Positions 28,162 to 45,456 of a DNA stretch of 64,000 nucleotides are shown piece after piece. The stretch is taken from NCBI RefSeq assembly GCF_040822085.1, contig NZ_CP162006.1, positions 3,348,001-3,412,000 of the forward strand. Direction: 5' to 3'. The notes under the pieces were generated by a model that was not told where the DNA came from, made no database searches, and saw only the letters and a list, made by a program, of their open reading frames with translations. Origin of the DNA: Rhodoferax sp. WC2427. GTDB lineage: Bacteria; Pseudomonadota; Gammaproteobacteria; Burkholderiales; Burkholderiaceae_C. The position numbers and the translations under genes were made by a program. Every line of letters begins with the position of its first letter. Within the stretch, counting starts at the first letter, position 1.

Positions 28162-28752
28162 CTACAAATACGGCGGCGTACAGGCCGAGACGATCTCGAC
28201 CACGCTGTCGCCGGTATTGCGAAAGCGGTGCGGCAGGCTGCTGTCAAACAGGTAGGCATCGCCCGCCTTCAACACGCGTACCTGGTCGCCCACGGTGAGC
28301 TCGATTTCGCCGCTGAGCACAATGCCCCCCTCGTGCGAGTCGTGCTCCAGCATGTCCACGCCGGTGTCGGCCCCGGGCGCGTAGCGTTCTTGCAGGATTT
28401 GCAGGTTGTGGGCGCGGGCGTTGCCCACTTGGCGCAGCGTCAGGGTGCGGTCGCCGCTGGCACCGGGGGCGTGGCGCGTCAGGCGGGAGGTCAAATCCAC
28501 CAGGTCGGCCGGGCTGTGGAACACGGCATCGGCCTGGGGCTGGTCGGGCTCGAAAAACTCGGCCATGGTCAGCGGCACGCCACTCAAAATCTTGCGCAGC
28601 GAGGCCACCGAGGGGCTGCTCTTGTTCTGCTCGATGGTCGAAATCTGGCTGGACGGCACGCCCGCCCGCTCCGCCAGCTGCCGCTGCGACCAGCCCGCCG
28701 CCATGCGCACCTGGCGCAAGCGGCTCCCCACATCAAACGGACCATCCCGCAT
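28162..28752 (-). CDS. XRE-family regulator with C-terminal cupin
   Basis: Transcription factor of about 196 residues: helix-turn-helix at about 10-64 (RLRQVRMAAGWSQRQLAER, then PSSQISTIEQNKSSPSVASL) and a cupin at about 120-190 (HEGGIVLSGEIELTVGDQV, DSSLPHRFRN) that would bind a small effector. PuuR and related amino-acid or polyamine regulators share this design. The start MRDGPFDVGSRL is chosen because it begins the HTH at the usual place; the longer frame runs through the divergent davB promoter. It is divergent from davB-davA, so control of lysine catabolism is likely. A decayed copy lies at 25840-26187. Confidence 0.9.
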   Translation of the reverse strand: MRDGPFDVGSRLRQVRMAAGWSQRQLAERAGVPSSQISTIEQNKSSPSVASLRKILSGVPLTMAEFFEPDQPQADAVFHSPADLVDLTSRLTRHAPGASGDRTLTLRQVGNARAHNLQILQERYAPGADTGVDMLEHDSHEGGIVLSGEIELTVGDQVRVLKAGDAYLFDSSLPHRFRNTGDSVVEIVSACTPPYL

Positions 28753-28769
28753 AAATAATTTCCCCAAAC

Positions 28770-28792
28770 GCTCAATATTTTGAGCAAAATAT
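28770..28792. promoter_or_regulatory. overlapping palindromes between the XRE-cupin gene and davB
   Basis: Two perfect inverted repeats overlap: GCTCAA-TATT-TTGAGC (28770-28785) and ATATTTTG-AG-CAAAATAT (28775-28792). They lie in the 70 bp divergent region, 18 bp from the regulator start and about 30 bp from the davB start. This is a strong operator candidate for the XRE-cupin protein. Confidence 0.7.
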
Positions 28793-28822
28793 ACACCTAT
28801 ACCGATCACTTGCGAATTTTCC

Positions 28823-30505
28823 ATGCCACTCGACCACACCGCCGCGCCGGCCAACAAAGCACCCGTCACCATTTTCGGCCCCGACTTTCCGTTTCCGTTC
28901 GACGACTGGATCGCCCACCCCGCCGGGCTAGGCAGCCTGCCCGCCCAGCACCATGGGGCCGAGGTGGCCATCGTCGGCGCGGGCATGGCCGGCATGGTGG
29001 CCGCCTATGAGCTGATGAAGCTGGGCTTCAAACCCGTGGTGTACGAGGCCTCCAAGATGGGCGGGCGCCTGCGCTCGCAGCCGTTCGAGGGCGGCCAGGG
29101 CGTGATCGCCGAGCTGGGCGGCATGCGCTTCCCGGTGTCCAGCACCGCGTTCTACCACTATGTCAACGCGTTGGGCCTGCAAAGCCAGCCTTTCCCCAAC
29201 CCGCTCACGCCCGCCAGCGGCAGCACCGTGGTCGATCTGGAAGGCCAGACCTACTACGCCGAAAAGCTCGCCGACCTGCCCCCCATGTTCAAAGAGGTGG
29301 CCGATGCCTGGGCCCGCGCGCTGGAAGACGGTGCCCAATTCGAGGCGGTGCAAGACGCCATCCGCAGCCGCGATGTGCCCGCGCTGAAGGCGCTGTGGAA
29401 CAAACTGGTCCCGCTGTGGGACGACCGCACCTTCTACGACTTTGTGGCCACCTCCAAGGCGTTTGCCGGGTTGTCGTTCCAGCACCGCGAAGTCTTCGGC
29501 CAGGTGGGCTTTGGCACCGGCGGCTGGGACTCGGACTTCCCCAACTCCATGCTGGAAATCTTGCGCGTGGTGATGACCAACTGCGACGACGAGCAGCGCC
29601 TGATTGTGGGCGGGGCCGACCAGGTGCCGCTGGGCCTGTGGCAGCACGCGCCCGCGCATTGCGTCCACTGGCCTGCAGGCACCACCCTGGCCAGCCTGCA
29701 CGGCGGCGCACCGCGCGCGGGCGTGGCGGCCATCCAGCGGCAAGACGATGACCAGATTGCCGTCACCGACCGCTGGGGCGACACGCGCAGCTATGCCGCC
29801 GTGCTCACCACCTGCCAAAGCTGGCTGTTAACCACCCAGATCGCCTGCGACGAATCGCTGTTTTCGCAAAAAATGTGGATGGCACTGGACCGCACCCGCT
29901 ACATGCAGTCCAGCAAAACCTTCGTCATGGTGGACCGCCCGTTCTGGAAAGACAAACACCCCCTCACCGGACGCGACACCCTGAGCATGACGCTGACCGA
30001 CCGCCTCACCCGCGGCACCTATCTGTTCGACAACGGCCCCGGCAAACCGGGCGTGATCTGCCTGTCGTACGCATGGATGGGCGACGCGCTGAAAATGCTG
30101 CCCCAGCCCCCCGAAAAGCGCGTCAAGCTGGCGCTGGATGCCTTGAAAAAAATCTACCCGCAGGTGGACATTGCCCGCCACATCATCGGCGACCCCATCA
30201 CCGTCTCGTGGGAGGCCGACCCGCACTTCCTGGGCGCGTTCAAGGGTGCGCTGCCCGGCCACTACCGCTACAACCAGCGCATGTTTGCCCACTTCATGCA
30301 AGACGACAAACCCGCCAGCGAACGCGGCATCTTCATCGCAGGCGACGACGTGTCCTGGACCCCCGCCTGGGTGGAGGGCGCGGTGCAGACATCGCTGAAC
30401 GCGGTGTGGGGCATCCTGCACCACTTCGGTGGCGCAACCCACGCCGAGAACCCCGGCCCCGGCGATGTGTTCAAAGAGATCGGCCCCATGGAGCTGCCGG
30501 AATGA
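28823..30505 (+). CDS. davB: L-lysine 2-monooxygenase (flavin monoamine oxidase family)
   Basis: FAD enzyme of 560 residues that oxidatively decarboxylates L-lysine to 5-aminovaleramide, the first step of the delta-aminovalerate route. The N-terminal dinucleotide fold is VAIVGAGMAGMVAAYELMK (about 48-66), followed by YEASKMGGRLRS and ELGGMRFP. The C-terminal FAD motif is GIFIAGDDVSWTPAWVEGAV. Length and many phrases agree closely with the Pseudomonas putida DavB sequence as I remember it. The amidase gene downstream overlaps by four bases, which supports the assignment over tryptophan monooxygenase or a general amino-acid oxidase. Confidence 0.9.
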   Translation: MPLDHTAAPANKAPVTIFGPDFPFPFDDWIAHPAGLGSLPAQHHGAEVAIVGAGMAGMVAAYELMKLGFKPVVYEASKMGGRLRSQPFEGGQGVIAELGGMRFPVSSTAFYHYVNALGLQSQPFPNPLTPASGSTVVDLEGQTYYAEKLADLPPMFKEVADAWARALEDGAQFEAVQDAIRSRDVPALKALWNKLVPLWDDRTFYDFVATSKAFAGLSFQHREVFGQVGFGTGGWDSDFPNSMLEILRVVMTNCDDEQRLIVGGADQVPLGLWQHAPAHCVHWPAGTTLASLHGGAPRAGVAAIQRQDDDQIAVTDRWGDTRSYAAVLTTCQSWLLTTQIACDESLFSQKMWMALDRTRYMQSSKTFVMVDRPFWKDKHPLTGRDTLSMTLTDRLTRGTYLFDNGPGKPGVICLSYAWMGDALKMLPQPPEKRVKLALDALKKIYPQVDIARHIIGDPITVSWEADPHFLGAFKGALPGHYRYNQRMFAHFMQDDKPASERGIFIAGDDVSWTPAWVEGAVQTSLNAVWGILHHFGGATHAENPGPGDVFKEIGPMELPE

Positions 30506-31314
30506 GCGACCTGCCGAACGATCTACGTTTGGCGCTGCTGCAGTGCCCGTCGCTGCCGCTGGACGTGCCCGCCAACCTGGCCCGGCTGGAGCGGTTCGCC
30601 GCCCAGGCCGCCGCTGCCGGGGCGCAGTTGCTGGTCACACCCGAGATGTTTTTGACCGGCTACAACATCGGCGGCCCCGCTGCCGCCGCACTGGCCGAGC
30701 CTTCTGACGGCCCGCGCGCCCAGGCCGTGGCGGCCATCGCCCGCCAGCACCAGATCGGCATCGTCTTCGGCCACCCCGAGCACAACGGTGGCGCGGTGTT
30801 TAACGCCGCCCAGTGCATCGATGCCCAAGGCTACACGCTGGGCCGCTACCGCAAGACCCAGCTCTTCGGCGACCTGGACCGCGGCATGTTCAGCCCCGGC
30901 CCCGGCGACGAGCCGCTGTTTGATTTGCACGGCTGGCGGCTCGGCCTGCTGGTCTGCTATGACGTGGAATTCCCCGAAAACACCCGCCGCCTGGCCCTAC
31001 AGGGTGCCGACCTGATCGTGGTGCCCACCGCCAACATGGAAGGCTTCGATTTCGTCGCCCAGCACCTGGTGCCCACGCGGGCCTACGAAAACCAGCTGTA
31101 CCTGGCCTATGCCAACTTCTGCGGCCCTGAGGGCGGTCTGGCCTACAACGGACTCAGCTGCGTGGCAGCACCGAACGGGGCGGGCCTGGTACAGGCCGGG
31201 CGCGGGGCCGAGTTGCTGCTGGCGGATGTGACGCGGGCCGGTTTGGCGGCGGGACGGGCCATGAATGGGCATCTGGCGCTGTGCCGGGCCCCGGGGCACA
31301 CGCTATCTAAATAA
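30502..31314 (+). CDS. davA: 5-aminopentanamidase (nitrilase-superfamily amidase)
   Basis: Carbon-nitrogen hydrolase of 270 residues that would convert 5-aminovaleramide to 5-aminovalerate. The Glu-Lys-Cys triad is visible: Glu48 (VTPEMF), Lys118 (YRKTQLFG) and Cys152 (LLVCYDVEFPE). The start codon overlaps the davB stop (ATGA), so translation is coupled. A longer frame upstream is a shadow of davB. The later pathway genes for 5-aminovalerate (transaminase, semialdehyde dehydrogenase) are not in this window. Other aliphatic amides cannot be excluded from sequence alone. Confidence 0.9.
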   Translation: MSDLPNDLRLALLQCPSLPLDVPANLARLERFAAQAAAAGAQLLVTPEMFLTGYNIGGPAAAALAEPSDGPRAQAVAAIARQHQIGIVFGHPEHNGGAVFNAAQCIDAQGYTLGRYRKTQLFGDLDRGMFSPGPGDEPLFDLHGWRLGLLVCYDVEFPENTRRLALQGADLIVVPTANMEGFDFVAQHLVPTRAYENQLYLAYANFCGPEGGLAYNGLSCVAAPNGAGLVQAGRGAELLLADVTRAGLAAGRAMNGHLALCRAPGHTLSK

Positions 31315-31526: not shown

Positions 31527-34500
31527 ATGGCTGGCACCGCTGACACCGTTTTTTTGCGCGCATTTTTGTGGCTGCAGGGCAGCGTGGCCGCACTGCAAAC
31601 CGACATCCAGCCGCCCGCGCTGGCCACGCCGCTGGCCGACGCGCTGCGCACCCGGCTCGGGCTGGCACTGGACCAGACCGCCGCCACCATCAACCCCGAC
31701 ACTTTCCACGCCAGCAATGCCGAGGCCCAGTCGCTGGCCACCGCGGCCATGGTGGTGGGCGAAACGCTGGCGGCGTTGAAAACCGTGGGCGAGCTGCTGG
31801 CCCACCTAGGCGACGGCGGCGTGGGGCTGGGGGATTTGTCCAAGGTCATCCAGCAGATCCACCGCATCACCTCGGCCAGCCCCGGCCAGCCCCCCAGCGC
31901 GTATGCGATTGCCAAGCTGCTGCTGATCGTCAGCGGCGATGCCGACCAGCCCGCCAGCGACCCGCCCGCCAAGCTGCTGGTCTACCGCCTGCTGGGCAAA
32001 ACTGCCGCCAACCCGCCCACCCCCGCCGCCTTTGCCGAAGCACAGATGACGCTGGGCCTGGTGGTGATGGCCATCGGCACCCTGCTGGACCGCGCCTTTG
32101 CCGCGCCCAACCTGGACGACGCCAAAGGCTGGCTGGTGCCCCGGGGTCCGGGCATCGACCTGCCGCCACTGGTGGCCAGCCGCGCCTTCCAGCTGGCCGG
32201 GGGCGCCAACGGCAGCCTGGACCTGCTGCTGGGCTACGACCTGCCCCAGCACCTGCTGTACGCCGAGCTCACCTCCACCCTGCGTGCCAGCCCCGGTGCC
32301 GGGCAGGACTTTGCGCTGGAGCTCAAGGCCGACGGCAAGGTCACGCTGCAGGTCGACCTGCCGGTGCTGACCAACCCGCTCCCCGCCCTGGCCGCGCCGG
32401 TACTCACCGGCACCTCGGCCATCGGCCTGCTGTTTAGCCGCAACCAGCCGCTGGTGCTGGGCAACGCGGCACAAACCCACTTCACCATCGGCAAGATGAG
32501 CGGCGGCTTCACCCTGGACAACCTGCAGCCCAAGGTGGAATTTGACCTGGCCGAGAGCGTGCTGTCGCTCAAGGTGGGCGACGACCCCTTCCTGGGCGCG
32601 GTGCTGGGCGAGTCTGTCGAGGTGGCGCTGACCTTCGGGCTGATTGCCGACATGGCGGGCGGCCTCCGGCTCAAGGACGGCACCGGCCTCAAGGCCACCA
32701 TCCCGCTGGAGCGCATCCCCAACAGCCCGGTACAGATCCCGTTCCTCAGTTTCGAGCTGAAGAAGGCAGACAACCTGGACAAAATCGAAGTCGAGCTGTC
32801 GGGCTCGTTCCAGGTGGAGATCGGACCGTTCGCGGGCTCCATCGACCGGCTGGGCACCCTGCTCCGGCTGGACGACCTGCTGGCCGGCACCACCGCGCCG
32901 CGCTTTGACCTGAAGCCCCCCTCGGGCGCGGGCCTGGCCATCGACGCGGGCATCGTCAAGGGCGGCGGCTTTTTGCTGTTCGACCCCGACCGGGGCGAGT
33001 ACGGCGGCATTCTGGACATCCGCATCGGCGTGATCGGGGTCAAGGCGATCGGCCTACTCAGCACCAAGAATCCCGGCGGCTGGTCGCTGCTGCTGATCAT
33101 CACCGCGCAGTTGCCGCCCATCCAGCTGGGTTTTGGCTTCACGCTCACCGGCATTGGCGGGCTGCTGGGCGTGCAGCACACGGTGAGTGTGGACACCTTG
33201 TCGCAGGGCCTGACCAGTGGCTCGCTGGACAGCTTTTTGTTTCCGCAAAACCCGGTGGCCAACGCGCCGCAGATCATCAACCAGCTGCGCACCATCTTCC
33301 CGTTCAAGGCCGGGGGCTTTGTCATCGGGCCGATGCTGGAGCTGGGCTGGGGCACGCCCAGCCTGGTAATCGCACGGGTGGGCGTGCTCATCGAAGCCAG
33401 CCAGATCGTGTTTGTGGGCCAGGTGATCGTGCAACTGCCGCCGCTGGTGGACAAGTCGCTGGCCATCCTGCGGCTGCAGGTGGACTTTGCGGGCGGCATT
33501 GTGTTCGACCCGCTGAAAATCTGGTTCGACGGCGTGCTGCGCGACTCGCGGGTGGTGTTCATCGCACTCACGGGGCAGTTTGCGTTCCGCGCCATTTTTG
33601 GCGACCGGCCCAGCTTTTTGATCAGTGCCGGCGGCTTCCACCCGCGCTTTACCGACCTGCCGCCCGGCCTGCCCAGCCCGTTCCAGCGCATCGGGGCGGA
33701 TTTGTCGATCGGCCCGGTGGGCATGCAGTTCCGAGGCTACTTTGCCGTGACCTCGGCCACGGTGCAAACCGGCTCGTCGATGCGCATCTGGGCCGACATC
33801 GGCATCGCCAGCATCGAAGGCGGGTTTGCGTTCGATGCCATCGTCTACATCGTGCCGCGCTTCCGCTTCGAGGTGGACCTGCACGTCTGGGCCAGCGTGG
33901 AGGTGTTTGACCTGGACTTTGCCAGCATCGACATCTACGGCCTGTTTGCCGGGCCGGGCCGCTGGCACATTGTGGGCCGGGCTGAAATCCACACGCCCTG
34001 GCCGCTGCCCGACTTCAGCTTCCATGTGGACGAGAGCTGGGGCGAAGACCGTGCCACCACGGTGCGCAAGCTGTCGCTGGCCACCGAGCTCAAGGCCGAG
34101 CTGCAAAAGCCCGGCAACTGGTCGGCCCAGTTGCCGCAAGAGGGCGATGCCTTTGCCAGCTTCGCCAAGCTGCCCGCCAGTGCCGGGATTCTGGCCCACC
34201 CCAACGCGGTGCTGCAGTTTGTGCAAAAACGCATGCCGCTGAACAAAAAGCTGGCCAAGCTGGGTACCGACGGCATCGAAGGCAGTGGCGACGCGCTGCA
34301 AATCAGCATCGGCGAGATCCGCTTCGGCGCAGAGACCACGCCGGTGGACAAAAAGCTCAACGACCAGTTCTCGGCCGCCCAGTTCCTGGAGCTGAGCGAG
34401 GACGAAACCTTCAGCCGCCCGTCGTTCGACAGTTTCGAGGCGGGCTTCCAGGTGGGCCAGCACAAGTACCAGTTTGGCCGCACCGCCAAGGACCTGTTCG

Positions 34501-34841
34501 ACTACGAAGAGGTCAACCTGTCCACACCCAAAACCGCCGCCAGCTCCCGCCTGGCGCTCGGTGCGCTGGTGGAAGTGGGGCATGCCCGCTGGGCCACCTC
34601 GCTGGGTGCGGCGGCGCGCTCGGAGCTGCGCCGCCCGGCCCGGCTGCAGCCCGCCACCGAGGTCAAGATCGCCGTCAACCCGGCCCCGCTGCACACCATA
34701 GACAGCGCCACCGGCACTTTGGCCAGCACACCGCTGGCTGGGGCCGCCGCGCAGTCGTACTGGGCCGCGCACGATTTGGTGGGGGCCAGCAGCAAGGCGC
34801 TGCAGATCGTCGAATCGTTTGAAACCGTACAGGCGTTTTAG
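31527..34841 (+). CDS. large DUF6603-like protein, first gene of an uncharacterised four-gene cluster
   Basis: 1104-residue protein of unknown function. The central half (about 330-870) is rich in Gly and alternating hydrophobic residues, with phrases such as LGFGFTLTGIGGLLGVQHTV and GGFHPRFTDLPPG that I associate with the DUF6603 family; the pattern predicts extended beta structure. The N-terminal 200 residues look helical. No signal peptide or clear transmembrane helix is seen. A good ribosome-binding site (GAAGGA) precedes the ATG. The stop is 9 bp from the next gene. I know of no characterised member. A structural or lipid-contacting role is only a guess from its beta-rich, hydrophobic pattern. 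Confidence 0.75.
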   Translation: MAGTADTVFLRAFLWLQGSVAALQTDIQPPALATPLADALRTRLGLALDQTAATINPDTFHASNAEAQSLATAAMVVGETLAALKTVGELLAHLGDGGVGLGDLSKVIQQIHRITSASPGQPPSAYAIAKLLLIVSGDADQPASDPPAKLLVYRLLGKTAANPPTPAAFAEAQMTLGLVVMAIGTLLDRAFAAPNLDDAKGWLVPRGPGIDLPPLVASRAFQLAGGANGSLDLLLGYDLPQHLLYAELTSTLRASPGAGQDFALELKADGKVTLQVDLPVLTNPLPALAAPVLTGTSAIGLLFSRNQPLVLGNAAQTHFTIGKMSGGFTLDNLQPKVEFDLAESVLSLKVGDDPFLGAVLGESVEVALTFGLIADMAGGLRLKDGTGLKATIPLERIPNSPVQIPFLSFELKKADNLDKIEVELSGSFQVEIGPFAGSIDRLGTLLRLDDLLAGTTAPRFDLKPPSGAGLAIDAGIVKGGGFLLFDPDRGEYGGILDIRIGVIGVKAIGLLSTKNPGGWSLLLIITAQLPPIQLGFGFTLTGIGGLLGVQHTVSVDTLSQGLTSGSLDSFLFPQNPVANAPQIINQLRTIFPFKAGGFVIGPMLELGWGTPSLVIARVGVLIEASQIVFVGQVIVQLPPLVDKSLAILRLQVDFAGGIVFDPLKIWFDGVLRDSRVVFIALTGQFAFRAIFGDRPSFLISAGGFHPRFTDLPPGLPSPFQRIGADLSIGPVGMQFRGYFAVTSATVQTGSSMRIWADIGIASIEGGFAFDAIVYIVPRFRFEVDLHVWASVEVFDLDFASIDIYGLFAGPGRWHIVGRAEIHTPWPLPDFSFHVDESWGEDRATTVRKLSLATELKAELQKPGNWSAQLPQEGDAFASFAKLPASAGILAHPNAVLQFVQKRMPLNKKLAKLGTDGIEGSGDALQISIGEIRFGAETTPVDKKLNDQFSAAQFLELSEDETFSRPSFDSFEAGFQVGQHKYQFGRTAKDLFDYEEVNLSTPKTAASSRLALGALVEVGHARWATSLGAAARSELRRPARLQPATEVKIAVNPAPLHTIDSATGTLASTPLAGAAAQSYWAAHDLVGASSKALQIVESFETVQAF

Positions 34842-34850
34842 GACATTCCC

Positions 34851-37800
34851 ATGGCCACCTCCACCCAAGTTGCCTACCAGTTCATGCCCTGGGTCCGCCG
34901 GGGTTTGAGTGTGGCGCTGACCGCCAGCGACACCCTGGGCGCAGGCCCGCTGCTTCCGGCGCGCGCCACCGCCCAGGTCAACGTAGGCCTGGCTGCGCCG
35001 CACGCGGGCACGCCCATCGACCCGCTGGCACTGCAACTGCACGGCCCCGGCGATGTGGTGGCCATCGACACCCGGCTGGTGCTGCGCACCGACCCCAAGC
35101 CGCACGCGCGCAACTTCGAGCCCAACTACCTGGCCATCGTGGACTTCGACCCGCCCGACTTCCCGTGGATGCTGACCCCCGCCCTGGCCCATGCCGACGA
35201 CCGCCTGCGCCCCTGGCTGGTGCTGCTGGTGCTGGAAAAATCCAAGGTGGGCACGCCCAAGATGCCGCCCCAGGGCCCGCTGCCCACAGTGCGCATTGCC
35301 GCCGCCGACGTGGCCACCGAGCTGCCGCCGCTGGGCGAATCCTGGTCCTGGGCGCACGCGCAGGTGGTCAGCCACAAGGACGACAAGCCCGGCATCCAGG
35401 CCGATCTGCAAGCCGACCCGACCCGCAACGCCTCGCGCCTGGTCAGCCCGCGCCGCCTGCTGCCGCTGACCGATTACGTGGCCTGCGTGGTGCCCGCGTT
35501 CGAGCCGGGGCGCTTGCGCGGCCTGGGCCAGGCCGAGGCCCAGCCCGCCGCCATGGCCACCCTGGGCCCGGCCTGGGACGTACAGCAACGCAAGGATGTG
35601 CTGCTGCCGGTGTACTACCACTGGGAGTTTTCCACCGGGCCGGGCGGCGACTTTGAATCGCTGGCGCGGCGGCTCAAGACACCCACCGCCTACGCGGGCA
35701 ACGCCGAGGTGGCCGCCCTGCTCAGCCGCGTGGGCACCGCACCGATGGGCGTGGACCCGGTGCTGACCGGCTTTGTGCAGGGTGCGGTGGCCACCATGGA
35801 AGGCGCGCTGGTGCCCATCCGCTACACCCCCGGTACGGCACCCGACCCGACGCAGGCCGACAGCCTGGCGCTGATCGTCAACACCCCGCAGGCCAACGTG
35901 GCCGACCCGGTGGCCGACGGCCCCACCAATGCCGCCGGGCGGCGCATCGAGGTCAAGCCGCAGATGGTCGGTGGCTGGCATGCCAAAAAGCACCAGGTGG
36001 CGGTGGACGAGGCCGCCACCCACTGGGTGGCCGGGCTGAACCTGAACCCGCGCTACCGCGGGGCCGCAGGCTATGGGGCCGAGGTGGTGCGGCAAAACCA
36101 GGAAATCTTCATGGACGCCGCCTGGGGCCAGATCGGCCGCATCCAGGAGGCCGAAATGCGCTTCAACCTGACCCGGCTGGCCATCGAGGCGCAGCGGGCC
36201 CTGAAGGCCAAGCATTTCGACACCCTGCCGCCCGAACGGTTGCTGCAGGTGATGGGGCCCGCGCTGGGCCGCATCGAGGCCCGGGCGGTCAACGGTACGG
36301 CCTACCGCATCGGCAGTGCGGCCGGTTCGGTGGCCGGGCAGATCGCCCGCAGCAGCCTGCCCGTCGCGCTGGCCGACACCACCATGCGCCGCGCCACCAC
36401 GCCCCAGCGGCGCAGCCTGCGCATGGCCGCACGGCTCAACGCCAACCTGCCCGCGCTGGCCGGGCAGACCCAACGCTACCTGGGGGCCATGGCTGCCGCC
36501 ACCCAGCGCAGCGCCGCCTTCACCGTGAACGCATTTTTGCCCGATGGCATCGTCAGCAGCAAGATGCTGGATGCCATGGATCTGGAGGGTGCCGCCGACC
36601 GCCTGCTGGACCTGCGCGGCCTGGGGCTGGGCCAGACCACGGTGGGCCAGGCACGGGCACTGCAGACCGCCGGCAAGGGGGCCGCCATGGCGCTGGCCAA
36701 ACGTGGCATGCCCGGGCTGCAGATCCGTGCGGGCCAGCACCTGGGCGTGTTCACCGACCTGCATGTGGAGCGCTTCAGCCAGTTGGCCAGCGCCATGCCC
36801 ACGGTGCAGTCCACCGACTGGGGCGTGGTGGCCAGCACCATCGAGTCGCTGGGCCACCGGGGGGTGGAGGGGGTGTTGGTCGAGGCGCGTGCCGCAGGCA
36901 ACAACCAGCAATCCAGCCTGCAGTTCAGCACCCTGAAGCTGGATGCCCGCAGCGGCAACCTGCGCCTGAACCGCGCCCTGGTGCGCGAGTTCGACAGCGC
37001 CCGCCGCGACACCACGCCCGCCGCCCGCAAGGGCGCGACAGCCCGCGCCTTGGCCGGTACCACCCTGGGCAGCCTGCGCATTGCCGACAGCCGCAAGTTC
37101 AGCACCGCGGGCGTGTTTGCCGCGCTGCCGATCAATGCGGTGCAATCGGTGGTGCTGGATGCCGAGAAGCCCCACTTCAGCGTCAACACCGGGTTCGAGA
37201 TCGTCGGTTCGCTGGCCGCCCCGCACGACCTGGCCGTGGCCACGCTGACCCTGCCACCCGCACTGCGCCAGCGCGCGGTGCTGAACCGCTATGCCGTCGC
37301 CACCCGCGGTAGCCAGCAGCTGTGGACCGACGGCTTCGCGCAAAGCCAGGTGCAGGTGCAAGCCGTGGATTTCAGCCTGGTGGCCGCCCGCAGCGCCATC
37401 ACCGTGGCCACCCAGCCCGACACCACGCTGCGCGCGCGGCTGGCCAGCACGGTGTCGGTGGCACACCTGGCTGCCACCGAGGGCAACGCCTTTGTGTCGG
37501 CCTATTTGTCCACCACCGATGCCTTCGCCCGCCAACGCTTCATGGTGCCCGCGCTGTTCGACCGGGTGATGGCCTGGCCCACGCTGCCAGAGCCGCTGTA
37601 CCAGCGCCTGTCTACCTGGAACAAAAACGCCTTTATGCCGGGGGTGGATGGCATTCCGCAAGACCTGGTGATGCTGGCCAAGGTAAACCAGCATTTCATC
37701 GACAGCTTCATGGCCGGGGCCAACTGCGAGATGAACCGCGAGCTGCTGTGGCGCGGCTTTCCCACCGACCTGCGCGGCACCCCGTTCCAGCGCTTCTGGG

Positions 37801-38510
37801 ACCGCAGCAGCATCGGCCCCGCGCCCACCTACACCTACACCCCGCTGGACGACATCCAGCCCCTCCACCAGTGGGGCGCGCAGCCACTGGGCCTGCGCAG
37901 CGACGCCATCAGCCCGTTCATCCGGCGCACCAACGGCGAGCGTATCAACCCGGTGGTGCTGCTGGTGCGCGGCCAGTTGCTGCGCCGCTACCCCAACACC
38001 GCTGTCTACGCCTGGAAGAAGACCCCGGGAGCCGACACCCTGCTGAAAGACGCGCAAGGCCTGCCGCCCGACGGCGCGCTGGCCACGCCACGCTTTAGCG
38101 GCACGATTGGCGACGACATCAGCTTCTTTGGCTTTGACATCGACGACGAAAAGGCCGCCGACTGGTGCTTTGTGCTGGAAGAGCAAATGACCGAGCCGCG
38201 CTTTGGCTTCGATGTGGATGAACCCGCCCCCGGCCAGGCCCGCACCGGCCCACCCCGGCGCAACGCCTTGCGCACCGCCATGGCCACGCCGCTGCACAGC
38301 CAGTACAACGCCTACAAGGCCTTGTCGTGGAGCAACCTGGCCGTGCCCCCCGGTGGCTTTGTCACGCTGGCCGGCCTGCGCCAGGCTCCGCCACCGGCAT
38401 TTGCGAGCTTCCCCATGCTGACGGCCCAGGCCAACGCCGCAGAAATCGCCCGCGCCCTGCTGCAACAACCGTTCCGCGCCTACTTTGTGGGCGCCGACCT
38501 AGTTACCTGA
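34851..38510 (+). CDS. uncharacterised 1219-residue protein, second gene of the cluster
   Basis: Unknown function. No signal peptide, membrane helix or nucleotide-binding motif is visible. The N-terminal third has an ordered domain (NYLAIVDFDPPDFPWMLTP, LRPWLVLLVLEK). The centre (about 440-640) is rich in Ala, Arg and Thr and may be helical. The C-terminal third is strongly conserved in character, with Trp- and Arg-rich phrases such as LLWRGFPTDLRGTPFQRFWD, SPFIRRTNGERINPVVLLVR and YPNTAVYAWKKTPG. It is 9 bp after the DUF6603-like gene and 22 bp before the next, so all are probably one transcript. A component of the same complex is the simplest reading. Confidence 0.7.
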   Translation: MATSTQVAYQFMPWVRRGLSVALTASDTLGAGPLLPARATAQVNVGLAAPHAGTPIDPLALQLHGPGDVVAIDTRLVLRTDPKPHARNFEPNYLAIVDFDPPDFPWMLTPALAHADDRLRPWLVLLVLEKSKVGTPKMPPQGPLPTVRIAAADVATELPPLGESWSWAHAQVVSHKDDKPGIQADLQADPTRNASRLVSPRRLLPLTDYVACVVPAFEPGRLRGLGQAEAQPAAMATLGPAWDVQQRKDVLLPVYYHWEFSTGPGGDFESLARRLKTPTAYAGNAEVAALLSRVGTAPMGVDPVLTGFVQGAVATMEGALVPIRYTPGTAPDPTQADSLALIVNTPQANVADPVADGPTNAAGRRIEVKPQMVGGWHAKKHQVAVDEAATHWVAGLNLNPRYRGAAGYGAEVVRQNQEIFMDAAWGQIGRIQEAEMRFNLTRLAIEAQRALKAKHFDTLPPERLLQVMGPALGRIEARAVNGTAYRIGSAAGSVAGQIARSSLPVALADTTMRRATTPQRRSLRMAARLNANLPALAGQTQRYLGAMAAATQRSAAFTVNAFLPDGIVSSKMLDAMDLEGAADRLLDLRGLGLGQTTVGQARALQTAGKGAAMALAKRGMPGLQIRAGQHLGVFTDLHVERFSQLASAMPTVQSTDWGVVASTIESLGHRGVEGVLVEARAAGNNQQSSLQFSTLKLDARSGNLRLNRALVREFDSARRDTTPAARKGATARALAGTTLGSLRIADSRKFSTAGVFAALPINAVQSVVLDAEKPHFSVNTGFEIVGSLAAPHDLAVATLTLPPALRQRAVLNRYAVATRGSQQLWTDGFAQSQVQVQAVDFSLVAARSAITVATQPDTTLRARLASTVSVAHLAATEGNAFVSAYLSTTDAFARQRFMVPALFDRVMAWPTLPEPLYQRLSTWNKNAFMPGVDGIPQDLVMLAKVNQHFIDSFMAGANCEMNRELLWRGFPTDLRGTPFQRFWDRSSIGPAPTYTYTPLDDIQPLHQWGAQPLGLRSDAISPFIRRTNGERINPVVLLVRGQLLRRYPNTAVYAWKKTPGADTLLKDAQGLPPDGALATPRFSGTIGDDISFFGFDIDDEKAADWCFVLEEQMTEPRFGFDVDEPAPGQARTGPPRRNALRTAMATPLHSQYNAYKALSWSNLAVPPGGFVTLAGLRQAPPPAFASFPMLTAQANAAEIARALLQQPFRAYFVGADLVT

Positions 38511-38532
38511 ATTCCCCGTTAAGGACGCCGCC

Positions 38533-41500
38533 ATGCCCGCACTGAACCTGAATCTGGACGCACTGCAGGCCGCCCGCGCCGAGCTGGTGCGCCAGCGCGA
38601 TGCCCAGCGCAGTGCCACCCTGGCCTGGCAGCAGGCCCAAGCCGCACTCGATACCCTGGCCCGCACCGGTGCCAGCGCCGATGCGTTGCAAGCGCAGGCC
38701 CAGCAGGTGGCCGACCTGCGCCGTACCGCCCAGGCGGCCCTGCAAGGCACGGCACAGCGCCTGCAAGGCATCCAGAACCTGTCGCAAGACCTGCTGGCCC
38801 ACCTGCAACTGCCGCAGGACAACCCGGCCCCGCTGGTCGAGGCCCTGGATGCCGCCCACCCGGTGGCCCTGCTGCCGGTGGCGGTGCAGACCCGCTACAC
38901 CGCCGATGCCAGCGAACTGATGGTGCGCATTTATCCCGATGCCATCCACAGCTTTGGCCACGAGCCGGGCCTGAGCGAAGCCGAAACCGCCGAGGGCAAA
39001 CGCTACTGGGCAGAGCGCTTTGCCACCCCGAGCGACACCGAGTCGCCCTGGCTGCAGATCGCCCGCATCTACACCCCGGCCCGTGCCGCCTGGATTGTGC
39101 GCAGCACCACGCCCACCAACTTTGACCAGCTGGGCCGCCGCATCGACGATGCCGACGCGGTGCTGGTCAGCCCCGAGTTTGACGACGCGGCCATTCCCCA
39201 AGCCAGCCGGGTCGGTGCCACCGTCTACGCCACCGCCCTGCCCGACCGCTTTGTGGTGGTGGGCCAAAGCCGGGGCCGCGAGGTGTTCCGCGTCTGGGGC
39301 CAGCCGGTGGCCGACCTGCTGCCGATGAACCCGGCGTTCGACCCGCTCACCGCCACCGACGAAGCCGAGGCCGAGAAAGACCCCTTTGGTGGCGACCGCG
39401 CCTGGCTGGTGGACTTCCCCGCCGCCGTGAAGGCGGGCATGGCCATCCGCGTCACTGCCAACGATATGCGCAACGGGGCTACGCTGTCCGACCCCATCGA
39501 CCGCCTGGTGGTGCTGGGCGTGGACTGGACGCAGACCCCCGACTCCGCCGCCACCCTGCTGGCCAGCCTGCTGGACAACCACCAGCACAGCGCCGGGCTC
39601 AAGCTGGTGGCCCAGGGCACACCCACCAACAACACCAGCACCACCCGCGCCGCTTTTGCCGCCAACGGGGCCGACCTGCTGGCCGACATGGACCCGCAAA
39701 CCACCAGCCAGCGCTCGGCAGACGGGGCTTTTGAGCTGGCCACTGCCGGGGGCCGCCTGCAAGGCCTGCTGGGCCTGCCGGTGGAGGTGTTTGACGCAGG
39801 CACGGTGCCCGGCGCCACGCTGCGCGAATCGGCCAGCGCAGGCCACATGGTCAACGCGCTGTGGAGCGCCACCCTGGGCTACACCCTGCGCTACTTCTGG
39901 AACCCGCGCGACACGGCGCAGGCGCTGATCAGCGACGCGGCGGTGGAGCAGCTGCGCGCCTGGTCGGTCCGCTACCTGCGCCCCGGCGGTCCGCTGTCCA
40001 CCCTGCGCGTGGGCCAGCAGCCCTACGGCATCCTGCCCATCTGCGCGCGCGATTTCGTGCCCAGCCCGCGTTCCGCATTGGAGCGCGAACTCACCGAGGC
40101 GCTGGACTGGCTGCGTCCGCACTGGGACAGCGTGGTCTACAAGGTGCCCACACTGCGCAACCCCAGCGCCGAGAGCCTGCACCAGGTGCTATCCATGCAA
40201 CCCTGGGCCTGCGCCAAGCGCTACAACGAAGTCATCGGCCCGGCCACCACCCAGAACAACCCGGCGTTTGCCGAGTTGGTGCAGTTCCAGGGCGCGTTTT
40301 TGCGTGGCCTGATGGGCCAGTTGCTCAGCCGCAAGAGCGCCGCGGTGCAGGTGCCCTACCTGTCGCTGTGCGCCATGCGGCCCAAGCAGAATTCGCTGGA
40401 TGCCGTGCCCTGGGTGCAGCGCGACCCCGACAACATGCCCCGCGAACGCGAGGGCGCGGCCCTGCTGCAGCCCAACTACATCGCCACCCTGCACAACCAC
40501 CTGGGCGACCCGGTCAGCGACCTGCGCGCGCGCATCGTGCCCATGCAAAACGGCAACTCGCTGCTGGAAGCCATGCTGGCCTTTGCCGCCGACGAAGAAA
40601 TCCTCAAATCGGGCCACGCGCTGTTCTACGCGCATGTGCAAAACAGCGCCAGCGTCAGCCCGCTGGTGAAAAGCCAGTTCCAGCGCATGGGCCTGGCCGA
40701 GTACGTCGGCGTGGCCACCAGCACCCTGGTGGGCGACCAGGTGGAAGTCAACACTGCCCGCAGCATGATGGGCGTGCGGCTGGAGGGCACCACCGCCAAC
40801 CGCTCCGTGGAGGGGCACATCGCCCAGTACCTGGGCCAGTCGGCCACCTTGTGGCCCGAGCAGATGCAAAACATCGCCAGCTTCAAGGACAGCCTGGCGT
40901 TTTTGCAAGACTGCAACGCAGGCGAGCTGCAGCAGGCCTTTCGCACCACGCTGGACCTGTACGCCCACCGGCTGGATGCCTGGATCACCGCCCTGGCCAC
41001 GCACCGGCTCGACACCCTGCGCGCGGCCCGGCCCCAGGGCCTGCACCTGGGCGCATTTGGCGTGGTGGAAGACTTGCTGCCCGATGTGGTGCGCCGCAGG
41101 CAGTTGCCGCCCGGCCAAAGCCAGGCGTTGGACAGCCTGGGCTACATCCATGCGCCTTCGGTACAGCAAGCCACCGCCGCCGCCGTGCTGCGCAGCGGCT
41201 TTCTGGCCAACGGGCAAGCCCCCGGCCAGGCGTTTGACATCGACCTGCGCTCCCAGCGGGTGCAGCGCGCCAAGCAGCTGCTGGAGGGCATCGCCAACGG
41301 CCAGTCCATGGCCGCCCTGCTGGGCTACCGCTTCGAGCGCGGCATGACGCACAGCGCGGGCCAGGCGCTGGCCCAGTACATCCTGGAGTGCCGCCAGGCC
41401 TACCCGCTGCGCCCCGCCGGGGCCAGCCCGCAGGACGAAGCCAGCGAGAGCATTGCCGCCCGCGACGTGGTGGACGGCGTGCGCCTGATGGATGCCTACC

Positions 41501-43512
41501 GCACCGCCCGCGCCGCGGGCACGGCCTTCAAAGTGCCGGGCGTGCCCGACGCGCTGCTGCTGCCCCACGCCGAGATCGCCGTGCTGATCGACGACCTGCT
41601 GGAGCAGATGGACGCGGTGTCCGACCTGCTGGTGTCCGAGAGCGTGTACCAGATGGTCAGCGGCAACCTGGACGGCGCCGGGGCCGCCATGATGACCCTG
41701 GACAAGCAAACCCGCCCACCCGAGCCCCGTGTGGCCGACACCCCGCACAGCACCCGCGGCTACACCCAGCGGCTGGTGGTGGCGCTGGAATCCGCAGACC
41801 CCGGCCCCTGGGCGGTGGAGGGCGAGCTGACCGCCCGCATGGAGCCGCGCCTGAACGCCTGGCTGGCCCGGCTGCTGGGCGACCCTGGCCGCTACCAGTT
41901 CCAGGCCCAGGTATTCAGCCCGCCCACCGGGGATAACGGCGACTGGGTCGTGACCGACACCGTGCTCACCGCTGGCATCGCCGAGCTTGGCCTGTCACCA
42001 CTGGCGCTGGTGCTGCACAGCGAAGCCCAGCAAGGCGCGGGCCAAAGCGGCGTGCAGGAGCGCCTGGGGCAGCTGATGGGCAACAAGCTGCGGGCACAAC
42101 TGGGTGCCGCCGCCGACGGCCTGGCCGTGGTGCTGCAGGCCGACGCGCCCGAGGCCGGGCAAATCGGGCTGGTCGCCTTCGAGTCACTGGCCTGGGTGCT
42201 GCGCCGCCTGCTGGCTAAAACCCGCCCGTTGCGTCGCATGGACATGGTGCAAGCCCGCGACGGCGTGGAGAGCGCCGCCACCCAGGACGATGGCGAAGCC
42301 GCCGGGGTGGACCTGGCCGAGCTGGAAGTACGTTGTCAGGATGCCGAACGCCAGGCCGATGCCGTGCTGGCCCTGCTGGCCGATGCCAGCGCCGCCGCGC
42401 CGGAAGACCTGGATACCCTGGATCCGCTGGATCCCGCCACCCCCGCACTGCTGGCGCAAACCCACACCGCCCTGGCCGCCGCCTATGCCCTGGGCTGGCG
42501 CAGCGCCGCAGGCCATACCCCGGTGGCCGCAGGCGACGGCCAGGGCCAGCCGCTGAGCGATGACGACACGGCAGCCCGTGCCGTAGGCCGCGCCCGCGCC
42601 TTGCTGCTGGAAATCGGCGGCCGCACCACGGCAGCCCGCACCGCGCCGGTGTCCGACGGGCGCGGCGGGCAACTCCAAGCCTTGTTGGACCGCATCCACG
42701 CGGTGATGGGCAAGGATTTTCCGGTGCTGCCGCTGTTCACCCTGGGCGCATTTGCCGCAGATGCCGCCGCCAGCCTGGGCGACCGCGACATGCTGCTGGG
42801 CAAGGCCGCGCTGGGCAACGACGACGCGGCCATTGCGGGCTGGTTGCCCAAGCTGGCCTGCGTGCGCGAAGCCAGCGCCCTGCTGGCCGACACCCTGCTG
42901 GCGGCAGAGGCGCTGGGCGAAGACAGCGGCTACCTGGACGACCCGCTGGACTTCCAGCTGCTGCAGTTCCCGCGCAACCCGTTAAACCACTGGGCCGCCC
43001 TGCCCCCCGCGCCCAAGCAAAAGCTGCAGGACCTGCGCGGCGTGGTGGCGATTGCGGCGCACGCCCCCGGCGGCCTGCGGGCGCTGGATGCGGCCAGCAC
43101 CCTGTCGGGCCTGTTTGTCGATGAATGGATGGAAACCATCCCCTCCGACACCGAGACCACTGGCGTGGGCTTCCATTTCGACGCACCCGGGGCCCGCCCG
43201 CCGCAGAGCATCTTGCTGGCCGTGCCCGCCGACCCCGCCGCCGACCACTGGACACTCGAGAGCCTGCTGGACACCGTCAATGAAGCCATGGCCCTGGCCC
43301 AGCTGCGCGCCGTGCGCCCACAGGACCTGGAAGGCCTGGGCCTGCTGCTGCCGGGCATCTTTTTGTCCAACAACTTCAAGCAGGACGTGCCCTCCATCGA
43401 CTTCGCCAGCATGGTCAGCAAGAACCTGTACGCCCTGCGCGCCGCCAGCGGTGTGGCCAACGGCAAAGCCACCATGGCCGCAGGCACCGCCCAGTTCGCC
43501 ACCAAATCCTGA
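38533..43512 (+). CDS. uncharacterised 1659-residue protein, third gene of the cluster
   Basis: The largest protein in the window; function unknown. Residues 1-100 are Ala/Gln/Arg-rich and probably coiled coil. A region about 150-300 carries ARIYTPARAAWIVRSTTPTN. The middle (about 440-560) has RYFWNPRDTAQALI, LRVGQQPYGILPICARDF and YLSLCAMRPKQNSLDAV. The C-terminus returns to helical, Ala-rich sequence ending in LLLPGIFLSNNFKQDVPSIDF. There is no signal peptide, membrane helix, Walker motif or obvious catalytic motif. The ribosome-binding site is AAGGA, and the stop overlaps the GAGGA site of the next gene, 9 bp away. A cytoplasmic scaffold is plausible from size and the coiled coil, but unproven. 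Confidence 0.7.
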   Translation: MPALNLNLDALQAARAELVRQRDAQRSATLAWQQAQAALDTLARTGASADALQAQAQQVADLRRTAQAALQGTAQRLQGIQNLSQDLLAHLQLPQDNPAPLVEALDAAHPVALLPVAVQTRYTADASELMVRIYPDAIHSFGHEPGLSEAETAEGKRYWAERFATPSDTESPWLQIARIYTPARAAWIVRSTTPTNFDQLGRRIDDADAVLVSPEFDDAAIPQASRVGATVYATALPDRFVVVGQSRGREVFRVWGQPVADLLPMNPAFDPLTATDEAEAEKDPFGGDRAWLVDFPAAVKAGMAIRVTANDMRNGATLSDPIDRLVVLGVDWTQTPDSAATLLASLLDNHQHSAGLKLVAQGTPTNNTSTTRAAFAANGADLLADMDPQTTSQRSADGAFELATAGGRLQGLLGLPVEVFDAGTVPGATLRESASAGHMVNALWSATLGYTLRYFWNPRDTAQALISDAAVEQLRAWSVRYLRPGGPLSTLRVGQQPYGILPICARDFVPSPRSALERELTEALDWLRPHWDSVVYKVPTLRNPSAESLHQVLSMQPWACAKRYNEVIGPATTQNNPAFAELVQFQGAFLRGLMGQLLSRKSAAVQVPYLSLCAMRPKQNSLDAVPWVQRDPDNMPREREGAALLQPNYIATLHNHLGDPVSDLRARIVPMQNGNSLLEAMLAFAADEEILKSGHALFYAHVQNSASVSPLVKSQFQRMGLAEYVGVATSTLVGDQVEVNTARSMMGVRLEGTTANRSVEGHIAQYLGQSATLWPEQMQNIASFKDSLAFLQDCNAGELQQAFRTTLDLYAHRLDAWITALATHRLDTLRAARPQGLHLGAFGVVEDLLPDVVRRRQLPPGQSQALDSLGYIHAPSVQQATAAAVLRSGFLANGQAPGQAFDIDLRSQRVQRAKQLLEGIANGQSMAALLGYRFERGMTHSAGQALAQYILECRQAYPLRPAGASPQDEASESIAARDVVDGVRLMDAYRTARAAGTAFKVPGVPDALLLPHAEIAVLIDDLLEQMDAVSDLLVSESVYQMVSGNLDGAGAAMMTLDKQTRPPEPRVADTPHSTRGYTQRLVVALESADPGPWAVEGELTARMEPRLNAWLARLLGDPGRYQFQAQVFSPPTGDNGDWVVTDTVLTAGIAELGLSPLALVLHSEAQQGAGQSGVQERLGQLMGNKLRAQLGAAADGLAVVLQADAPEAGQIGLVAFESLAWVLRRLLAKTRPLRRMDMVQARDGVESAATQDDGEAAGVDLAELEVRCQDAERQADAVLALLADASAAAPEDLDTLDPLDPATPALLAQTHTALAAAYALGWRSAAGHTPVAAGDGQGQPLSDDDTAARAVGRARALLLEIGGRTTAARTAPVSDGRGGQLQALLDRIHAVMGKDFPVLPLFTLGAFAADAAASLGDRDMLLGKAALGNDDAAIAGWLPKLACVREASALLADTLLAAEALGEDSGYLDDPLDFQLLQFPRNPLNHWAALPPAPKQKLQDLRGVVAIAAHAPGGLRALDAASTLSGLFVDEWMETIPSDTETTGVGFHFDAPGARPPQSILLAVPADPAADHWTLESLLDTVNEAMALAQLRAVRPQDLEGLGLLLPGIFLSNNFKQDVPSIDFASMVSKNLYALRAASGVANGKATMAAGTAQFATKS

Positions 43513-43521
43513 GGAACCGCC

Positions 43522-45456
43522 ATGCCCATCTCCCTTACCGCCGCACGCATCTCGGTGGTCTCGGCGCTGATTGCGCAGCCCGAGCCCTCGCACACCACCT
43601 GGTCGCGGCTGGAGCCGCTGCCCACCAGCGACGACGTGGCCGACAGCCTGCAGGCCCGCATTGCCGACCCGCTGTGGATGCTGGCGCGGCAATGGCAGTT
43701 CAACGAGTTCCAGGGCGAGGACGCGGGCAGCCCCATCGCCGCCGCGCTGGCGGTGGCGGGCCTGCCCGTGAGCAGCCTGCTGCCCCGCGCCGATGCGCTG
43801 GACGGCACCCCCCTGCCGCCCGGTGCCGCGCCGCTGGAGGCGCTGGTGGAACACGAGCAGGTGTTCCAGGTCCACCCCAAGCTCAACGCCCAGGCGGGCC
43901 AGCAACTGATGCGCAGCCTGCGCGCCGCCGGGCTGGGCACTCTGGCCCAGGCGCTGCGCAAGCAGTTCCCCGCGCCCCTGCCCGCCCCCGATGATGCCGC
44001 CGCCGACAACGCCGGGTTTGTGTGGCACACCCTGCTGGACCAGCGCGCCATCCACGCCCAAGCGCTGGCCCAGGCCTTCGGCGCCCTGCCCGACCGCGCG
44101 GCCGAAGAGGCGTTTGGCAGCATCGCGGGGGCCAGCATCGCGCAGATGGATGCCTTTTTGGCACTGCTGCACCACTGGGTGGACTGGCTGGCGGAGTTTG
44201 CGCTGGACGGCACCGCGCCCGGGGCCAGCCCCTACTGGAAGCCCGAGCGGCTGGAGTACAGCTTTGCCCTGGGGGCCCAGGGCGATGGCGCACCGGTGCG
44301 CCTGGTGGCCGACGAGTACACCGACGGGCGGCTGGACTGGCACAGCTTTACCCTGGGTGCCGCCCACGCCGACGCAGGCGGGCCGGACCAGACCGTGTCG
44401 TACCCGACCCAGCCGCCCAAACACCTGCCCTTGCCCACCACTGCCCGCTACCCCGGTATGCCCGCCGACCGGTACTGGGAATTTGAAGATGGCCGCGTCA
44501 ACTTCGGCATGTTGGGCGCCGCCAAGAGCGACCTGGCCCGGCTGGCCGTGCTGGAGTACGCGCTGGTGTTCAGCAACGACTGGTTCACCCTGCCGCTGAC
44601 CCTGCCGACGAACGCGCTGTACACCGTGCAGAAGCTGGACGTGCGCGACAACTTCGGCATCACCCTGGCCATCCCAGCAGCGGGCTGGAACATGTTTGAG
44701 CTCAGCCTGCAGCCCGGCGCGCCGCAGCGGCTGGACAACACGCTCTACCTCTGCCCTGCCCTGCACAGCCTGGAGGGCCCGCCGCTGGAGCACGTGATGC
44801 TGGTGCGCGACGAGATGGCCAACATGGTCTGGGGTATTGAGAAGCGGGTTCAGGGCAGCTCCGGCGAGCCCATCGACCGCAAGTTCGAAAGCACCCGCCT
44901 GTCCACCACCCAGACCCTGCGGCCCACGGTAATAGCCGACGCGCCGCCCGCCAGCGCCGGTGCCCTGCTGCAGTACACCCTGCAAACCCCAGTGGCAGCG
45001 CACTGGGTGCCGTTCCTGCCGGTCAAGAAGCAGGGGGCCGACGTGCTGCACTGGAGCATCCAGCTGCAGCGCGGCGTGGTCACCCACCACTACCAGACCA
45101 CACCCGCACGCATGGCCGAGCCGGTCAACGCCAGCTACAGCGCCTTCATCCAGCGCCTGCGCGACAACGCCTTTGTAGAAACCACCGGTGCGCTGGGCAC
45201 CGAAGACCACCAGCTCGAAGGCTTCATGTTCCACCCCCGCGGCAGCCTGCTGCGGCAAGACCCCAACGTGGACGTGAAAACCGACTTCCTGCGCATCGCC
45301 GAAGAAGAGGTACCCCGCGACGGCATCAGCCTGCAGCGCCGCTTCAACTACGCCCGCGACAGCCAGGGTCGCGCCCTGCTATGGATAGGCCGCAACAAGC
45401 TGGTGGGACGCGGCGAAGGCGCCAGTGGCTTGAAGTTTGATGTGGTGAAGGCGTGA
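43522..45456 (+). CDS. uncharacterised 644-residue protein, fourth gene of the cluster
   Basis: Unknown function. Near the N-terminus is ADPLWMLARQWQFNEFQGED, followed by AGSP. I have seen this phrase in hypothetical proteins of distant bacteria but cannot attach a function. The C-terminal half contains RDEMANMVWGIEKRVQGSSG and ends in RRFNYARDSQGRALLWIGRNK. No signal peptide, membrane helix or known catalytic motif is visible. It is the last of the four tightly spaced genes; two hairpins and a repeat copy follow before the metallopeptidase gene. It is judged real by base composition, ribosome-binding site and cluster spacing. Confidence 0.75.
   Translation: MPISLTAARISVVSALIAQPEPSHTTWSRLEPLPTSDDVADSLQARIADPLWMLARQWQFNEFQGEDAGSPIAAALAVAGLPVSSLLPRADALDGTPLPPGAAPLEALVEHEQVFQVHPKLNAQAGQQLMRSLRAAGLGTLAQALRKQFPAPLPAPDDAAADNAGFVWHTLLDQRAIHAQALAQAFGALPDRAAEEAFGSIAGASIAQMDAFLALLHHWVDWLAEFALDGTAPGASPYWKPERLEYSFALGAQGDGAPVRLVADEYTDGRLDWHSFTLGAAHADAGGPDQTVSYPTQPPKHLPLPTTARYPGMPADRYWEFEDGRVNFGMLGAAKSDLARLAVLEYALVFSNDWFTLPLTLPTNALYTVQKLDVRDNFGITLAIPAAGWNMFELSLQPGAPQRLDNTLYLCPALHSLEGPPLEHVMLVRDEMANMVWGIEKRVQGSSGEPIDRKFESTRLSTTQTLRPTVIADAPPASAGALLQYTLQTPVAAHWVPFLPVKKQGADVLHWSIQLQRGVVTHHYQTTPARMAEPVNASYSAFIQRLRDNAFVETTGALGTEDHQLEGFMFHPRGSLLRQDPNVDVKTDFLRIAEEEVPRDGISLQRRFNYARDSQGRALLWIGRNKLVGRGEGASGLKFDVVKA

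Follow-up and report, generated by a model that had tools for sequence, protein, structure and literature searches.

A recurrent four-gene module of giant proteins in Rhodoferax sp. WC2427, a possible carrier for exchangeable hydrolases and toxins in bacteria and haloarchaea

The 64,000-nucleotide stretch of the Rhodoferax sp. WC2427 genome considered here (the window; contig NZ_CP162006.1, positions 3,348,001 to 3,412,000) contains four consecutive genes for giant proteins, designated P1 to P4, which comparison with relatives supports as one co-inherited, recurrent unit. In many of these relatives a slot upstream of P1 is occupied by an interchangeable gene, whose product is in most cases a hydrolase or resembles a toxin. 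The model favoured here, whose probability falls just short of even, proposes for P1–P4 the role of conserved body in a carrier built from several leaderless proteins, with which bacteria and haloarchaea would manage an exchangeable hydrolase or toxin whose action lies outside the cell. All four genes lie on the forward strand: P1 (31527..34841, 1104 residues), P2 (34851..38510, 1219 residues), P3 (38533..43512, 1659 residues) and P4 (43522..45456, 644 residues), separated by gaps of 9, 22 and 9 bp. A first-pass annotation of the same DNA had placed them exactly so, in one orientation and with these lengths and gaps, and the genes are confirmed as real. Its statement that only the first product resembles a named family also holds: P1 is a clear member of DUF6603 (PF20248), a family without stated function, its Pfam profile match reaching 382 bits over residues 401–959 against a gathering cut-off of 27, and P2, P3 and P4 have no match up to E = 1 in Pfam, NCBIfam or PHROGs, nor any PDB sequence match up to the same threshold. 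The ratios of non-synonymous to synonymous substitution rates relative to a sister-species genome (G007, locus L099) are 0.164 for P1, 0.099 for P2, 0.103 for P3 and 0.078 for P4, and therefore all four are regarded as genuine, constrained proteins under purifying selection.

Recurrence was followed by a genome scan keyed on an alignment of P2, which confirmed 188 relatives, of which 80 loci were kept, the synteny counts being conditional on the P2 match. P1, P2, P3 and P4 stand in this order on one strand in 66 of the 80, and 12 of the remaining 14 are truncated by a contig end. Of the other two, L071 has split frames and no recognisable P3, and in a Leptolyngbya locus (L096) the order is P2–P3–P4, then a PhoD-type gene, then P1. 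With starts chosen by script, the median gaps between successive genes from P1 to P4 are 8, 6 and 4 bp, and gaps of at most 60 bp are found in 57/70, 35/69 and 59/67 of the successive pairs. P4 also has matches in 14 plasmid records, from Streptomyces, Rhizobium, Gemmatirosa, Paraburkholderia, Nocardia and haloarchaea; ten of the eleven plasmid loci first fetched carry relatives of all four genes in the same order, the P2 and/or P3 part is divided over several open reading frames (ORFs) in L009, L012 and L014, and L007 has P4 only. The Nocardia plasmid has P2, P3 and P4 together with a gene annotated as DUF6603, and the gene immediately after P4 bears the annotation S8 peptidase. The first-pass annotation had supposed that the set may recur in distant bacteria and had named a lack of co-occurrence of the four families elsewhere as a refutation of its claim; they do co-occur.

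The spread of the module is wide. At least 1508 relatives of P4 were found among the best 7999 candidates scored, the hosts in the P2-keyed scan include Streptomyces, Neobacillus and haloarchaea, and the 69 rows of a quick P4 tree come from 14 phyla, with haloarchaea among them. This tree contains well-supported sister pairs across phyla, Planotetraspora with Rubellimicrobium (support 100) and Rhizobiales with Microtetraspora (support 99), and therefore suggests that the module has moved between phyla. Among the relatives searched, the gene set is patchy. The genome of the window (4.78 Mb, single contig) has one DUF6603 gene and one P4, and P4 occurs in five of 149 relatives' genomes, four of which, counting the window's own, belong to its genus, eight members of which were listed in that search.

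The slot was examined in 79 loci with a usable P1 start, 69 from the genome scan and 10 on plasmids, leaving out L074 (same record as L013), L046 and L059 (short upstream DNA) and loci without a full P1. A co-directional gene often precedes P1: it could be classified in 51 of the 79 loci, whereas 15 have an unclassified ORF and 13 have no ORF. The commonest occupant is a PhoD-like phosphatase, found at 29 loci (three of them at 764–860 bp) with profiles and Pfam-scanned members; then come proteases with a WHR domain (5), pore-type proteins (4), M64 peptidases (4), a haloarchaeal family of 410–430 residues (3), phospholipase D (PLD) proteins (3), DUF2515 proteins (2) and a beta-lactamase-like protein (1). 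Pfam recognised PhoD in all eight seeds, six of them above the cut-off, and also, below the cut-off, in L067; the PhoD-like gene of L051 is a fragment, 93% identical to that of L054. Further Pfam matches in scanned slot members were to M64 (L055), S8 (L089), PLD (L076), DUF2515 (L043) and Beta-lactamase2 (L048); the upstream proteins of L058, L015 (7567-9069), L065, L078, L029 and L053 gave no Pfam match, and the remaining members were assigned to classes by profiles built here or by hand. When eight cargo classes are mapped onto the P4 tree, the 45 rows that bear a label need 13 changes, the minimum possible being seven, and an alphaproteobacterial locus with a WHR protease is sister to an actinomycete locus with M64 (99 in this quick tree). 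The function of the module is testable because the neighbour is swappable, each slot class predicting a different activity.

Some details of the surrounding genes may be added. M64-like genes stand in tandem directly upstream of the module in L055, L064 and L072, and two Streptomyces loci (L079:6024-7097 and L094:6005-7078) share upstream of P1 an ORF of 357 residues with coding-like composition, ferritin-like by eye. Downstream genes are less regular: they include a PLD protein (L085) and an M36-like peptidase (L046), while others, a chemoreceptor and an AMP-binding enzyme for example, are unrelated.

Different slot proteases have in common a C-terminal stretch of about 100–130 residues with a W-H-R and G-P core, the WHR domain. 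It is borne by subtilases (L089, L015, L063) and by proteins that are trypsin-like by eye (L058, L012, L063, L015). A profile built from seven copies recovered an eighth, outside the seed, in L012, and in the five whole genomes or plasmids searched with it the eight copies that score strongly (E at most 1.8e-26) are all found upstream of the sole DUF6603 gene there, no more than about 3.5 kb away; one more match, away from the module, is weak (E 0.0044). This placement makes WHR look like a docking or sorting domain for the module. Each of the pore-type slot proteins (L008, L014, L065, L093) contains a segment of strong hydrophobicity. Their matches are to the C-terminal part of BTH_I2691, an effector family of the type VI secretion system (T6SS), with E values of 3.6e-12 for L008, 2.9e-10 for L093, 1.5e-8 for L065 and, for two copies on the Halobellus plasmid, 1.4e-6 and 0.0046, all below the whole-protein cut-off of the family. 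Upstream of the better-scoring Halobellus copy's neighbour P1 the plasmid carries no new case: it has a second module (L110, NZ_CP134947 225000-248206) with an identical pore-type protein upstream and a different chassis; the two copies are counted as one duplicated case because both proteins bear the same accession.

As for the chassis itself, P1 is a giant amphipathic beta-sheet. Its N-terminus is helical (about residues 7–190) and long beta strands occupy residues 215–838 (32169..34040, forward strand), where in the 31 strands taken, of 12 residues on average, the two faces differ by a mean of 2.81 Kyte–Doolittle units versus 1.48 ± 0.19 after within-strand shuffling (0 of 1000 shuffles as high). 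Such a sheet could belong to a particle for lipid or other hydrophobic cargo, with P1 as a lipid-wrapping belt like that of apolipoprotein B, P2–P4 giving shape or coat and the adjacent enzymes processing the cargo, a proposal considered quite improbable. P2 is conserved in its N-terminal (about 1–520) and C-terminal (about 850–1219) parts with a variable middle; 46 relatives of it have no Pfam match of any kind, and FG-GAP is present in three long actinobacterial P2s outside that set. Strongly hydrophobic segments at about residues 534–647 occur in four of 78 P2 proteins (L056, L058, L063 and L089), the last three of which also have WHR-type proteases in the slot. Among 24 relatives of P3 scanned, Big_6, Big_13 and Decapeptide appear in single members and FG-GAP_3 in two. 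The AlphaFold2 model of P4 is confident (pLDDT 82.9, pTM 0.80), and its comparison with the PDB gave no convincing match. Of three long P4 relatives scanned, one has PA14 together with a sub-threshold F5/8-C match, and two have lamin-tail domains, one of them above the cut-off. Adhesion-type domains (PA14, lamin-tail, FG-GAP, Big_6) are thus found on some chassis relatives. By hydropathy, a crude test, none of P1–P4 has a signal peptide or membrane helix (highest 19-residue Kyte–Doolittle mean 1.86), in agreement with the first-pass annotation, and a similarly crude test saw a hydrophobic N-terminus in none of 290 chassis proteins and none of 53 slot proteins.

In the carrier model, P2–P4 would assemble as the body, with exchangeable surface-binding domains, and P1 would wrap the cargo or contact membrane or lipid. 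The slot protein would be loaded as cargo, the particle would leave the cell by a route other than Sec or Tat, for example by lysis, and once released it would deliver the enzyme to the cells or surfaces that are its targets. In the lineage of the window, where no slot gene is recognised, the cargo could be the metzincin encoded downstream, could be encoded elsewhere, or might not be needed.

Several observations weigh against this model. PhoD and the protease slot enzymes are also compatible with nutrient scavenging, the slot classes extend a few Pfam-scanned members by profiles built here, and 28 of the 79 loci have no classified slot gene. In a control for BTH_I2691, four of 14 genomes also gave a match at E ≤ 1, none above the cut-off, and for L014 itself the match to this family is no better than E 0.0046, although the second copy, identical to it, reaches 1.4e-6. 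No multi-helix membrane protein was found directly upstream of the pore-type genes, a search that would miss soluble immunity proteins, and the fold matches of P1 are distant, at a root-mean-square deviation of about 10 Å. The subclade of the window itself, represented by ten other rows of the P4 tree, has no recognised slot gene. Confidence in the carrier, and in the more elaborate delivery particle described below, has been lowered slightly because the ORFs upstream of P1 in this subclade are either ordinary genes or frames whose composition is not clearly that of coding DNA. The genes are an RNase E (L027) and a histidine kinase (L022), both from PDB matches, and, judged by eye, a flavin oxidoreductase (L026) and a LysR-type regulator (L029); the frames are those of L024 and L035; four of the ten loci have no upstream ORF by the criterion used. 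In the window the gene upstream of P1 is a carbon-nitrogen hydrolase that ends 212 bp before it, and in the sister species G007 other genes intervene upstream of P1. Finally, the metzincin of the window is absent from the corresponding place in G007.

The scavenging alternative would make of the module a surface or extracellular scaffold, cellulosome-like in principle, by which phosphatases, proteases and lipases are kept attached to polymers or detritus. It would account for the predominance of PhoD in the slot, for the PA14 domain in one P4 relative and for the fact that no immunity-like protein was found beside the pore-type genes, and the hosts named in the P2-keyed scan belong largely to environmental genera. 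However, pore-type slot proteins resembling a T6SS effector are ill-suited to feeding, and the crude hydropathy test found signal peptides on neither chassis nor slot proteins; this scaffold is judged unlikely.

The downstream metzincin, P5 (45738..46823, forward strand, 361 residues), is a tentative and the only candidate cargo of the carrier in the window. It is a leaderless metzincin-like protein: the motif HExxHxxGxxH is present in the copy of the window's own genome (L001), and it matches Peptidase_M10 at 28.1 bits (cut-off 24) and Astacin at 27 bits (cut-off 22.5). A further match, about 185 residues long, is to myroilysin (E 1.6e-22), and nearly the full NF050131 model (SCO6992/AbsR1) can be aligned to P5 at 336.5 bits, well under the family cut-off of 650. 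According to PMC9705864, SCO6992 is reported to be a beta-glucuronidase without protease activity, an odd claim that P5, as a full-length relative of SCO6992/AbsR1, could serve to test. No PHROGs match was found for P5. Its position downstream of P4 is where the Nocardia plasmid has its S8 peptidase. In G007 the metzincin place (L099 16910-17830) holds small genes, by eye a nucleotidyltransferase/HEPN pair.

Among known systems, Tc toxin complexes consist of a small number of giant subunits that lack leaders, possess binding domains and carry an enzyme as cargo. The module resembles them in its giant leaderless subunits and in the FG-GAP repeats of actinobacterial P2, but its enzyme is a separate gene, and at the sequence level no Tc, SpvB or Rhs Pfam match was found in P1–P4 of the window or in the 46 P2 relatives. 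Type VI and extracellular contractile injection systems are alike in outline: in bacteria and haloarchaea, effector-like genes that can be exchanged lie next to those for a conserved body. They differ in that no relative of a sheath, tube, baseplate or spike was found among P1–P4 in sequence searches of PHROGs, Pfam and NCBIfam, and in that the module hosts include the Streptomyces, Neobacillus and haloarchaea named above. The likeness to a T6SS effector belongs to relatives, not to the window, and consists of partial BTH_I2691 matches (E 3.6e-12 to 1.4e-6, best per record). Descent of the module from a phage tail or contractile injection system, by degeneration or by divergence of its proteins past recognition, would explain these effector-like neighbours and the occurrence of hosts in both domains, as PMC11566945 gives for contractile injection systems. 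Nevertheless, no PHROGs match was found for P1–P4 or P5, a pattern scan of viral contigs gave no relative of P4 or P2, and no match to P1 was found in phage records, and such a descent appears very improbable. Polymorphic toxin systems (PMC3482391) likewise combine one conserved carrier with a wide choice of toxin-like enzymes; in the module, by contrast, what varies is a gene of its own beside the carrier genes instead of a cassette fused to the carrier's C-terminus, and the search for multi-helix membrane proteins upstream of the pore-type genes gave no immunity gene.

Searches of PubMed Central (PMC) for DUF6603 and for PF20248 returned no paper, which agrees with the proposal of the first-pass annotation that the system is undescribed. 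The module is rated as categorically new, with a putative function, because P2–P4 fall outside Pfam, NCBIfam and PHROGs, the P1 family has no function on record and no PMC paper was found. The interpretation given by that annotation is partly supported overall: the widespread, co-inherited unit stands, its idea that the four products are subunits of one large assembly is still a prediction, and the exchangeable enzyme slot and a second type of DUF6603 module had been missed.

This second type emerges from a sample of 398 Pseudomonadota genomes, nine of which have DUF6603, so that the family is not confined to the four-gene module. P4 was matched only in the window's own genome, with at most three candidates scored per genome, by which divergent P4s may escape. 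In the other eight genomes (L101–L108) the DUF6603 proteins have 1513–3390 residues and other large partners, for example at L102:6670-17268 and L104:3241-19900. An adjacent gene is similar to the N-terminus of P2 in six of the eight, a weak but significant similarity (hmmsearch E 4.9e-12 to 9.5e-5); further partners tested in this set gave no match to P3 or P4 better than E 0.048. The module of the window may therefore be one branch of a wider theme of DUF6603 with a P2-like partner. Upstream in L102 there is a weak metallo-beta-lactamase match.

A more elaborate proposal, which is rather doubtful, is that P1–P4 form an undescribed delivery particle of bacteria and archaea unrelated to phages, comprising a leaderless four-subunit carrier, a WHR docking signal on some of its cargo, exchangeable surface-binding domains and a swappable enzyme or pore-forming payload, with the modules of DUF6603 and P2-like proteins in other Pseudomonadota as its second branch. 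If true, a delivery or enzyme-display machine, for which searches have shown no sequence kinship with any known secretion or phage-tail system, would extend over at least 14 phyla, its parts being currently filed as 'hypothetical protein'. Whatever the function, four large conserved families that are nearly always together are an obvious target for structural and genetic work, the more so as one of them is modelled confidently and yet has no convincing counterpart among known folds.

With respect to the rest of the window, the matched composition asserted by the first-pass annotation holds only roughly, the GC content in 2-kb windows being 67–72% from 32 to 44 kb and 60–70% elsewhere. An antisense ORF over P1–P2 (33054-38468, reverse strand, 1804 residues) was rejected as a GC-rich mirror of these genes, the codon-position pattern fitting the forward frames. 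Beside the module, at 28162-31314, an HTH-cupin (helix-turn-helix) regulator, a flavin amine oxidase and the carbon-nitrogen hydrolase make up a set resembling amine catabolism, which looks unrelated.

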